From NCBI RefSeq assembly GCF_009915765.1, contig NZ_JAABLQ010000001.1, positions 2,604,001 through 2,668,000 on the forward strand: a stretch of DNA of 64,000 bases, read 5' to 3'. The notes under the pieces were generated by a model. It was given only the letters and a program-made list of their open reading frames with translations. It ran no database searches and was not told the DNA's origin. Both the position numbers and the translations under genes were made by a program. The stretch comes from Pannonibacter sp. XCT-53 (GTDB lineage Bacteria > Pseudomonadota > Alphaproteobacteria > Rhizobiales > Stappiaceae). This document shows, piece by piece, positions 7,157 through 13,509 of this stretch; position 1 is the stretch's first letter; the number at the start of each line of letters is the position of its first letter.

Positions 7157-8281
7157 TCAGAACAGCGACAGCTGCACGCCGCCGGTCTGGGGCGCGGTGA
7201 ACAGCTCCGTGGTGAGCTTGCGCCGGCGCTGGTTGAGACCGAGGCGACGGGCGGTCAGGGCGAAGCGCTGGCCGATCTGCTGGGCATAGGGCCCCTGCCC
7301 CTTCATCCGCTGTCCCCATTCGGCGTCGTAATCCTTGCCGCCGCGCATGGAGCGCAGGATGTTCATGACATGGCGGTAGCGGTCCGGCCGGTTGCGCAGC
7401 AGCCAGTCGCGGAAGAGTTCCGAAACTTCCAGCGGCAGGCGCAGCAGCACATAGCCGGCCTCGGTGGCCCCGTTGCCGGCTGCCGCCTCCAGGATCGCCT
7501 CGATCTCGCTGTCGGTGAGGGCCGGAATGATCGGGGCCATCATGACGGAGACCGGAACGCCCGCCTCGGACAGTCCCTTGATCGCGGCCAGGCGACGGTG
7601 CGGCGCGCTGGCGCGGGGCTCCAGCGTGCGGGCGATGTCGCGGTCAAGCGAGGTGATCGACAGGGCGACCTTGGCCAGCCCCTTCTCCGCCATGCGGGCA
7701 AGGATGTCCACATCCCGCAGGACAAGCGCGGACTTGGTGACGATGCCGACCGGATGCCCGGTGCGCTCCAGCACCTCGAGGATCTCGCGCATCAGCCGGT
7801 AGCGGCGCTCGATCGGCTGGTAGGGATCGGTGTTGGTGCCGATGGCGATGGTGCGGGGCTGGTAGCCGGGGCGGCCCAGCTCGCGCTCCAGCAGCTCGGC
7901 CGCATTGGGCTTGGCAAAGAGCCGGGTCTCGAAATCGAGCCCCGGCGACAGGCCCATGAAGGCATGGGACGGGCGGGCGAAACAGTAGACGCAGCCATGC
8001 TCGCAGCCGCGATAGGGGTTGATCGACCGGTCGAAGGAAATGTCCGGCGAGGTGTTGCGGGTGATGATGCTGCGGGCCTTTTCCTCCTGCACGGTGGTCT
8101 TGAGCGGCGGCAGGTCATCCAGCGTCTCCCAGCCGTCGTCGAAGGCCTCGCGCTGCTCGCGCTCGAAGCGGCCGGAGCGGTTGAGACCGGCACCGCGGCC
8201 CCGCCGCAGATCCTCCGCCACGCGCGCGCCGGCCAGTGCCGTGTCGCTGCTGACCTGATCGATCAGGGTAATTGCCGCCAT
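7157..8281 (-). CDS. PA0069-family radical SAM protein (SPL-like), with C-terminal clamp-binding motif
   Basis: The 374-residue protein carries CEHGCVYC, the CxxxCxxC motif that binds the radical-SAM [4Fe-4S] cluster, within NPYRGCEHGCVYCFARPSH. IAIGTNTDPYQPIE follows, and the TIM-barrel core resembles spore photoproduct lyase relatives. The PA0069 family has no settled function. Two features suggest DNA repair: the extreme C-terminus reads GVQLSLF, a canonical sliding-clamp binding pentapeptide (QLxLF), and a GTTC-N7-GTTC LexA-type box lies 29 bases before the ATG. The gene is divergent from the glycosyltransferase at 8396. Family assignment is confident; the repair role is inference. Confidence 0.9.
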   Translation of the reverse strand: MAAITLIDQVSSDTALAGARVAEDLRRGRGAGLNRSGRFEREQREAFDDGWETLDDLPPLKTTVQEEKARSIITRNTSPDISFDRSINPYRGCEHGCVYCFARPSHAFMGLSPGLDFETRLFAKPNAAELLERELGRPGYQPRTIAIGTNTDPYQPIERRYRLMREILEVLERTGHPVGIVTKSALVLRDVDILARMAEKGLAKVALSITSLDRDIARTLEPRASAPHRRLAAIKGLSEAGVPVSVMMAPIIPALTDSEIEAILEAAAGNGATEAGYVLLRLPLEVSELFRDWLLRNRPDRYRHVMNILRSMRGGKDYDAEWGQRMKGQGPYAQQIGQRFALTARRLGLNQRRRKLTTELFTAPQTGGVQLSLF

Positions 8282-8309
8282 GGGTCCGCGTTCCTCGACT
8301 CGCCAATGA

Positions 8310-8324
8310 GAACATTACCGGAAC
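8310..8324 (-). promoter_or_regulatory. LexA (SOS) box candidate
   Basis: On the minus strand the sequence is GTTCCGGTAATGTTC, an exact match to the direct-repeat operator GTTC-N7-GTTC known for alphaproteobacterial LexA. It ends 29 bases before the radical SAM ATG, where a repressor would cover the -10 region (TAATGT occurs within it). It is also 72 bases upstream of the divergent glycosyltransferase. No other such box was noticed in intergenic DNA of this window. Confidence 0.7.
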
Positions 8325-8395
8325 ATTAGCCGAAAACGCAGACGCGGCAAGGGCCTCCCTCGCCTTGTCCGCCAAAAGCCGCTAGAACGCTCCCC

Positions 8396-9073
8396 ATGAT
8401 CAGTGTCGTCATCTCCAGTCTCGACAACGAGGAAGGCCTCGCGCACAGCCTGACCGCCCTGGTGCCGGCGGCGGCCGAGGGTATCGTCCGGGAAGTGGTG
8501 GTGATGGATGGCGGCTCGCGCGACGGCAGCGTGACCGTGGCCGACGCAGCCGGATGCGAGCTGCATGTGCTCCTGGCGGGCGAAGGCCGTCGCTACGCCG
8601 AAGGCGCGGCCCGCGCTGCCAAATCTCCCTGGCTCCTGTTCCTGCCGGCCGGCAGCGTTCTGGAAGCCGGCTGGCACACGGACGCAGCCTCCTTCGTCGA
8701 ACGGGCCGAACGCAGCGGACAGGCGGACCGATGCGCCGCCGCCTTCCATCTGAGGCGCGATGATTTCGGGCTGTCCGCCCGGCTGAGCGAAACGGCGGCC
8801 ACCCTGTCGACGCGGCTGTTCGGCATGCCCTGCAACGAACAGGGCCTGCTCGTCTCCCGCCGGCTCTATGTGGCGCTTGGCGGACACCGCGACCTGGCCG
8901 GACTGGCCGATCTGGACATTGCGCGGCGCATCGGACGCAGCCGCCTGGTGCTGCTGCGCAGCGCCGCAATTGCGCCGCAGCGGCCCAACCATGGCCCGCG
9001 CCAGACCCTGGCCCGCCTGGCGGTGACCGCCCTGCGGCTGCCGCCGAGACTTGCCGCCGGCCTGCACGGCTGA
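8396..9073 (+). CDS. Family 2-like glycosyltransferase
   Basis: A 225-residue cytoplasmic protein with a GT-A fold start: ISVVISSLDNEEGLAHSL, then VVVMDGGSRDGSV (the nucleotide-sugar binding DxG segment), and KSPWLLFLPAGSVLE where family 2 enzymes bind metal and donor. It is shorter than most family 2 transferases and lacks membrane segments. Acceptor and donor are unknown. No Shine-Dalgarno is seen before ATG 8396; a TAGAAC -10-like hexamer about eight bases upstream allows a leaderless transcript. It is divergent from the radical SAM gene and shares its promoter region, including the LexA-type box. Confidence 0.75.
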   Translation: MISVVISSLDNEEGLAHSLTALVPAAAEGIVREVVVMDGGSRDGSVTVADAAGCELHVLLAGEGRRYAEGAARAAKSPWLLFLPAGSVLEAGWHTDAASFVERAERSGQADRCAAAFHLRRDDFGLSARLSETAATLSTRLFGMPCNEQGLLVSRRLYVALGGHRDLAGLADLDIARRIGRSRLVLLRSAAIAPQRPNHGPRQTLARLAVTALRLPPRLAAGLHG

Positions 9074-12826: not shown

Positions 12827-13384
12827 TCAGGCCTGACGCAGCTTGCCGCGCTTCAGATGTTCATCGAGGCGCGGCATGATCTCGACGAAATTGCAGGGCA
12901 TGTGGCGGTAGTCGAGCTGCCACTTGAGGATGCCGTCCCAGGCATCCTTGCAGGCTCCCGGCGAGCCCGGCAGCACGAAGATGTAGGTCGCCCCCGCAAC
13001 CCCGCCCGTCGCGCGGGACTGGATCGTCGAGGTGCCGATCTTGTCGTAGGAAATGCGGTGGAACACCTCGGAGAAACCGTCCATCCGCTTCTCGAACAGG
13101 GGCTCGATCGCCTCGGGGGTCACATCGCGGCCAGTGAAGCCCGTGCCCCCCGTCGAGATGATGACGTCAACGCCGTCCGCCGCGATCCAAGCGCGCACGA
13201 TGGCCCGGATCTCCTCCACCTCGTCGCGGACGATGCGGCGGTCGGCCAGATGATGCCCGGCGCCGGTGAGCCGCTCGACCAGCGTCGCGCCGGACCGGTC
13301 GCCGTCAAGGTCGCGCGTGTCGGACACGGTGAGCACGGCGATGTTGAGAGGGACAAAGGGACGGCTGTCATCAAGGCGATTCAT
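12827..13384 (-). CDS. moaB: Molybdopterin adenylyltransferase-like protein MoaB
   Basis: MoaB/MogA proteins adenylylate molybdopterin before molybdenum insertion. The 185-residue product shows the MoCF-domain motifs NIAVLTVSDTR, VIISTGGTGFTGRDVTPEAI (the nucleotide-binding TGGTG loop), GGVAGATYIFVLPGSPGA and the C-terminal helix. The start at 13384 follows GGAG and removes a 36-residue unrelated extension. No other molybdenum cofactor gene is nearby, so it stands alone, convergent with the monooxygenase gene. Confidence 0.93.
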   Translation of the reverse strand: MNRLDDSRPFVPLNIAVLTVSDTRDLDGDRSGATLVERLTGAGHHLADRRIVRDEVEEIRAIVRAWIAADGVDVIISTGGTGFTGRDVTPEAIEPLFEKRMDGFSEVFHRISYDKIGTSTIQSRATGGVAGATYIFVLPGSPGACKDAWDGILKWQLDYRHMPCNFVEIMPRLDEHLKRGKLRQA

Positions 13385-13509
13385 GGGCAGGCTCCGGCGG
13401 TGTCGTGGTCCCAGAGATAGGCCAGCCAGCCGGCCGGCGCCAGTGGCCGCAAGACGGGGCGCGGGAGACGCGGGCCGCAAGCTTCGGACCAAAAATCGAT
13501 CATTCCTTT

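Follow-up and report, generated by a model that had tools for sequence, protein, structure and literature searches.

A PA0069-family radical SAM gene in the window (the whole 64,000-nucleotide stretch of Pannonibacter sp. XCT-53 DNA analysed here) probably encodes an SOS-induced enzyme that is brought to the beta clamp and acts on damaged DNA. The preliminary description had proposed such an SOS-controlled, clamp-recruited DNA repair enzyme, and the reading is now supported, as a prediction, by conservation of both the LexA box in front of the gene and the motif at the end of its product. We consider the finding real and, for a prediction made from sequence, well supported; its new part is the apparent docking on the clamp by a radical SAM family, a feature that seems conserved in at least two phyla.

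Results

The gene and its upstream box

The family assignment made in the preliminary description was confirmed by the NCBIfam model NF033668 (rSAM_PA0069), which matched the protein along its entire profile (1–348 of 348), scoring 573.5 bits where 360 are required; the Pfam Radical_SAM model matched as well. With 243.6 bits, the protein missed the cut-off of 430 of NF038135, the model of the Rv2578c family. The coordinates first given for gene and box proved correct: an exact GTTC-N7-GTTC box precedes the ATG, GAGGAA stands a short way 5′ of that codon, and the translation ends in the GVQLSLF that had been described (...GGVQLSLF-stop). A phmmer search of PDB sequences with the window protein found no relative, and the 15 phage records with a match held distant relatives alone, each covering less than 80% of the query. 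The features of the locus are collected in Table 1.

Table 1. Features at and near the radical SAM locus, in window coordinates.
Feature	Position	Strand	Basis or remarks
PA0069-family (NF033668) radical SAM gene	7157..8281	-	ORF, ATG at 8281, 374 aa
CxxxCxxC radical SAM [4Fe-4S] motif (C93, C97, C100)	7982..8005	-	Alignment columns
Predicted LexA operator GTTCCGGTAATGTTC (GTTC-N7-GTTC)	8310..8324	-	28 bp between box and ATG; conservation in orthologues
Beta-clamp-type pentapeptide QLSLF, residues 370-374	7160..7174	-	Translation and 160-sequence alignment
Predicted flexible C-terminal tail, residues 354-374	7160..7222	-	pLDDT <50; SPL fold match ends at 353
Divergent glycosyltransferase-like gene	8396..9073	+	TIGR04283, 87.9 bits, below cut-off of 182
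MoaB-type molybdenum cofactor biosynthesis gene, ordinary	12827-13492	-	TIGR02667, 264 bits

Chance predicts 1.16 exact GTTC-N7-GTTC matches for the window, and at least one turned up in 68 of 100 shuffles; the box is the sole match observed there. The whole genome holds 114 such matches against 76 for a backwards control; we therefore rejected any significance for the single box taken alone. What lifts it above chance is its conservation upstream of the orthologues, described below. That GTTC-N7-GTTC is the operator of this genome is likely, judging from the same pattern upstream of its lexA (box at C1:1483348, LexA domain from 1483413), its recA (box at 611824, RecA domain from 612009) and its imuB region (box at C2:119356, imuB frame from 120009), and from the Caulobacter SOS box, published as GTTC-N7-GTTC (PMC9578287).

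Conservation of the operator under lineage-specific forms

The gene was matched in 60 of the 61 genomes of the taxonomic family and scored over the cut-off in 92 of 190 genomes of the class. We searched for boxes between −460 and −150 relative to the CxxxCxxC codons, took expectations from shuffles and ran reversed patterns as controls. For the family, we read the loci of the 30 genomes that scored highest among the 60 matched, and for the class all 91 matches over the cut-off other than our own, with one locus with short upstream DNA (L151) left out of the box count; twelve later order-level loci (L299–L302 and L310–L318, minus other groups) stand outside the class counts. Among other Pseudomonadota, we read 47 of the roughly 60 genomes over the cut-off (40, then seven more), the lowest-scoring ones being left out. 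For Actinobacteria, we used the best 80 of 593 confirmed candidates, picked by similarity to a Nonomuraea protein, 77 of which had a readable frame.

Exact GTTC-N7-GTTC boxes were present upstream of all 30 best-scoring family orthologues (0.18 expected, none with the reversed control) and at 77 of 90 class loci (0.74 expected, one with the reversed control), and one further class locus, L061, has an exact box further out, at −532. The other two groups carry operators of different form: CTGT-N8-ACAG in 22 of the first 40 other Pseudomonadota (0.12 expected, reversed control 0) and in all seven gammaproteobacteria added later, which makes 29 of 47, and GAAC-N4-GTTC in 48 of the 77 best-scoring Actinobacteria (0.14 expected, reversed control 0). 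Each operator type is nearly exclusive to its own lineage and almost missing from the other groups. Because the same kind of gene has been kept under differing, lineage-specific operators, the evidence for LexA control of the gene family is strong, and the box, whose conservation in orthologues had been put forward as a check, is indeed kept across the class and replaced by the local operator elsewhere. We infer that LexA represses the window gene itself.

No exact CTGT-N8-ACAG was found within −460 to −150 in 18 of the 47 other Pseudomonadota, one of which has a box at −544, and in these 18 the tail of the protein is mostly of a weaker form, for example QGxLF. A QGxLF tail without a CTGT-N8-ACAG box was seen at L154, L157, L158, L161, L164, L168, L170–L172 and L178, as if SOS control had been lost or changed there and a weaker clamp motif kept.

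A conserved beta-clamp-type tail

A tail motif was scored where the last 15 residues contained Q-[LMIFV]-x-[LFIM]-[FLIM] or a six-residue variant, and a weaker form where they contained Qxx[LM][FL]. The motif was found in all 30 best-scoring family proteins (none weaker; 0.89 expected from shuffles) and in 85 of 90 class proteins (three more weaker; 1.3 expected), after one locus with its tail cut off (L150) had been dropped; it is missing from L140 and L143. Thus, the C-terminal pentapeptide, like the box, passed the conservation check that the preliminary description had suggested, and it extends to other Pseudomonadota, with 20 of the first 40 (20 more weaker; 0.75 expected) and all seven further gammaproteobacteria (27 of 47, again with 20 more weaker), and to Actinobacteria, with 43 of the 77 best-scoring (20 more weaker; 0.15 expected), where two loci with the motif more than 15 residues from the end (L228, L260) were scored as misses. 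By comparison, 327 other long ORFs in these loci, taken mechanically and with gene status unverified, yielded two matches, both of them tails of the gene itself. The DinB and ImuB frames of the Pannonibacter genome yielded no tail usable for comparison.

In an alignment of 160 sequences, Q370 is conserved at 98%, L373 at 95% and F374 at 66%, with L in most of the others, and position 372 is usually occupied by S, A or D. The stretch of five residues that precedes the motif varies and is partly gapped. This Q-x-x-L-[F/L] pattern with S, A or D at the third position agrees with the clamp consensus QL[S/D]LF, in which positions 1, 4 and 5 weigh most (PMC3919608), and its placement resembles that in transposases, where the clamp motif is mostly C-terminal (PMC4549789). 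Orthologues include variants such as QLTLGL, QLSLGF and QMALDL, a six-residue shape that clamp motifs can take, and in some sequences residues continue past the motif (QLSLFEMAS, QLSLFADA, QADLFETAA).

Both tail patterns failed in 14 of the 77 Actinobacteria, ten of which end in LF without Q in place, so that the motif appears to decay in this phylum. At L235, L236, L238, L243, L244, L249, L250, L262 and L266, the leading Q is gone and the tail ends in xTLF or xLF, which looks like a clamp motif cut down to its final positions; several of these loci retain an exact LexA-type box. Among distant relatives, the Gemmatirosa protein ends in QLSLGI and that of Acetoanaerobium in QLSFF. The clostridial relatives L285 and L286 have the tails QLSFF and QLGF, from which the motif may reach into the Bacillota. 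The relatives from Priestia, Paenibacillus, Runella and haloarchaea have a C-terminus without a clamp-type motif, and in the haloarchaeal plasmid relatives (the distant plasmid relatives being 12 hand-picked records) no PCNA motif was recognisable there either.

Fold, cysteines and relation to spore photoproduct lyase

AlphaFold, given the window protein along with 37 relatives from Actinobacteria, produced a model with a mostly well-predicted core. Residues 354–374 have a pLDDT below 50 and are predicted to be disordered, so that the QL[S/D]LF-type motif lies inside a segment predicted to be flexible, a feature of beta-clamp clients. The top fold matches in the PDB were six entries of spore photoproduct lyase (SPL, SplB), with Z of 17.8–18.9 over 261–271 aligned residues and rmsd of 3.1–3.7, followed by lipoyl synthase (Z 15.3) and, more widely, by viperin, the peptide maturases SkfB and SuiB and the tRNA enzymes MiaB and TYW1. 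The SPL match spans model residues 52–353 and stops there; the tail is therefore an addition to the SPL fold. In sequence, SPL was found weakly by profile search (E 0.0066–0.026), neither SPL model (TIGR04070, TIGR03886) matched the window protein at E 0.001 in the NCBIfam scan, and the hhalign alignment of PA0069 with SPL-type proteins was unreliable. The kinship thus rests on fold.

The cysteines set the two apart. C93, C97 and C100 are the only ones in the window protein and are Cys in 160 of 160 relatives, and a search of these for a fourth conserved cysteine gave 57 of 160 as the best other column; in 50 Actinobacterial relatives, too, the cluster cysteines are invariant and the next best column reaches 36 of 50. 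SPL has a further cysteine (C140, of which mutants are named in the titles of its PDB entries), and SPL-type proteins of the same order carry a further Cys within FEASCYTDPLGIEHL-like stretches. The extra Cys of SPL is its hydrogen donor. Given this role and no conserved cysteine outside the cluster motif, SPL chemistry is unlikely, and we rejected it as the main reading. Of the relatedness to SPL claimed at the outset, the kinship in fold therefore stands, but neither an SPL family model nor an SPL-type extra cysteine goes with it.

The two families also differ in the signals examined here. SPL-family genes occur in just five of 249 genomes of the order, one of them as a weak match (19.8 bits), and the seven SPL-family proteins sampled from the order had neither tail motif (0/7) nor LexA box (0/7), an eighth candidate, weak at 19.8 bits, having been omitted as off-target. 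The PA0069 copies in the same four genomes had the motif in four of four cases and the box in three of four.

Genomic context

The intergenic region 8282–8395, with the LexA box, is common to the radical SAM gene and the divergent glycosyltransferase-like gene; 22 of 30 own-family loci, that of the window among them, have a homologue of the latter close by. LexA might control both genes, which makes them candidates for co-regulation. A glycosyltransferase gene is likewise divergent on Sinorhizobium meliloti pSymB. In the 190 class genomes, the radical SAM gene and ImuB occur together in 73, the gene only in 19, ImuB only in 12 and neither in 86, with genome size uncontrolled; this co-occurrence is strong, yet carries no weight for the mechanism.

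Discussion

The proposed enzyme and its alternatives

The course of events that we propose would begin with DNA damage, which would lead to LexA cleavage and induction of the enzyme. Its folded SPL-like core would bind the [4Fe-4S] cluster and SAM, the flexible tail ending in QLxLF would dock it on the DNA-bound beta clamp, and it would work on DNA lesions at replication forks, in their wake or where repair synthesis takes place. The conserved signals suggest induction and docking of the window protein, although a short motif, however well kept, is no proof of binding; that the enzyme acts on DNA, and on which lesions, we infer. The chemistry would more likely be another radical reaction, one acting on crosslinks or bulky lesions, than an SPL-like reversal of dimers via a cysteine, non-SPL chemistry being probable because an extra conserved cysteine is lacking.

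LexA control combined with clamp docking is typical of enzymes acting on DNA. This general knowledge, together with a DNA repair enzyme as nearest fold, counts against an otherwise similar proposal, in which the clamp-docked protein would modify not a DNA lesion but, during SOS, a nucleotide or a protein of the replisome; viperin, SkfB, SuiB, MiaB and TYW1 among the fold neighbours speak for such a substrate, and we regard it as unlikely. The tail itself might be a structural or degradation signal that merely resembles a clamp motif, as its position at the extreme C-terminus in most sequences and its decay to xLF tails in some Actinobacteria would allow. Several sequences, however, extend past the motif, longer clamp-like variants occur, the third position is free, the preceding linker is variable and the tail is predicted to be disordered, all of which make a signal of this other kind distinctly improbable.

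The literature, in naming the gene splB and using the phrase 'photoreactivation is under SOS regulation', points to an SOS-controlled photolyase of SPL type that reverses thymine dimers through the SPL cysteine chemistry, and PMC3323433 describes splB of alpha- and beta-proteobacteria as a predicted photolyase. The lead of the six SPL entries over lipoyl synthase among the fold matches agrees with it. The protein and its 160 relatives, however, conserve just the three cluster cysteines, where the SPL-type proteins of the order have a further one, no NCBIfam SPL model is reached and SPL-family genes are rare in the order, and we hold a photolyase to be very unlikely.

Known systems

PA0069 itself presumably belongs to the LexA regulon of P. 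aeruginosa. LexA control of genes of this kind, variously named splB, COG1533 or radical SAM protein, is already in print. It was predicted for the 'splB' of alpha- and beta-proteobacteria cited above (PMC3323433), which is probably the PA0069 gene, since SPL-family genes occur in so few genomes of the order, and further sources place SplB in LexA networks of Bacteroidetes (PMC8565304), link SplB-like proteins to SOS operons (PMC3765255), list a radical SAM protein both for the Balneolaeota and for the core SOS regulon that Gram-positive bacteria share (PMC7739468) and report that in Streptomyces venezuelae LexA binds a radical SAM gene which mitomycin induces (PMC9380542). The last, vnz_31145, probably belongs to the Rv2578c family (NF038135), the sister family of PA0069. 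The Actinobacterial loci often have GAAC-N4-GTTC operators and clamp-type tails; the NF038135 scan covered three Actinobacterial proteins, two of which were over the cut-off that the window protein misses. The clamp-docking half of the finding looks new: in the open-access literature, judged mostly from listings, we found nothing tying a bacterial SplB-like or radical SAM protein to the beta clamp, and C-terminal clamp clients such as DinB and transposases are polymerases or transposases, not radical SAM enzymes.

The nearest parallel is archaeal. Archaeal SplB-like genes adjoin nreB, which likewise ties an SplB-like enzyme to the sliding clamp, and the Nre proteins next to them carry a PCNA motif at the C-terminus, plain in NreA and less clear-cut in NreB; mitomycin repair needs NreA and its PCNA motif, and crosslink repair is that author's speculation (PMC4929162). 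There, the clamp motif sits on the separate Nre protein, whereas in the window it sits on the radical SAM protein itself. In view of this SplB-like/Nre/PCNA parallel, lesions of the crosslink type are an attractive, though unproven, substrate. We would go further only tentatively, to a scheme that is possible but on balance doubtful, in which the proteins of the PA0069 and Rv2578c families belong to a single bacterial repair pathway, ancient and recruited to the clamp, held under SOS control through changes of LexA operator and removing crosslinks or bulky lesions at forks by a non-SPL radical reaction, with the archaeal pairing as its counterpart and the clamp motif there on the partner.

If the proposed reading is true, a widespread SOS gene of no known role would gain a site at which its product acts, namely the sliding clamp. 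As far as searches of the open-access literature show, no radical SAM enzyme would have been predicted to be a client of the beta clamp before this one. It would also put in question the label 'SOS-regulated photolyases' for such genes. Should the substrates be crosslinks, the SOS response would gain a direct-reversal route in many Pseudomonadota and Actinobacteria.
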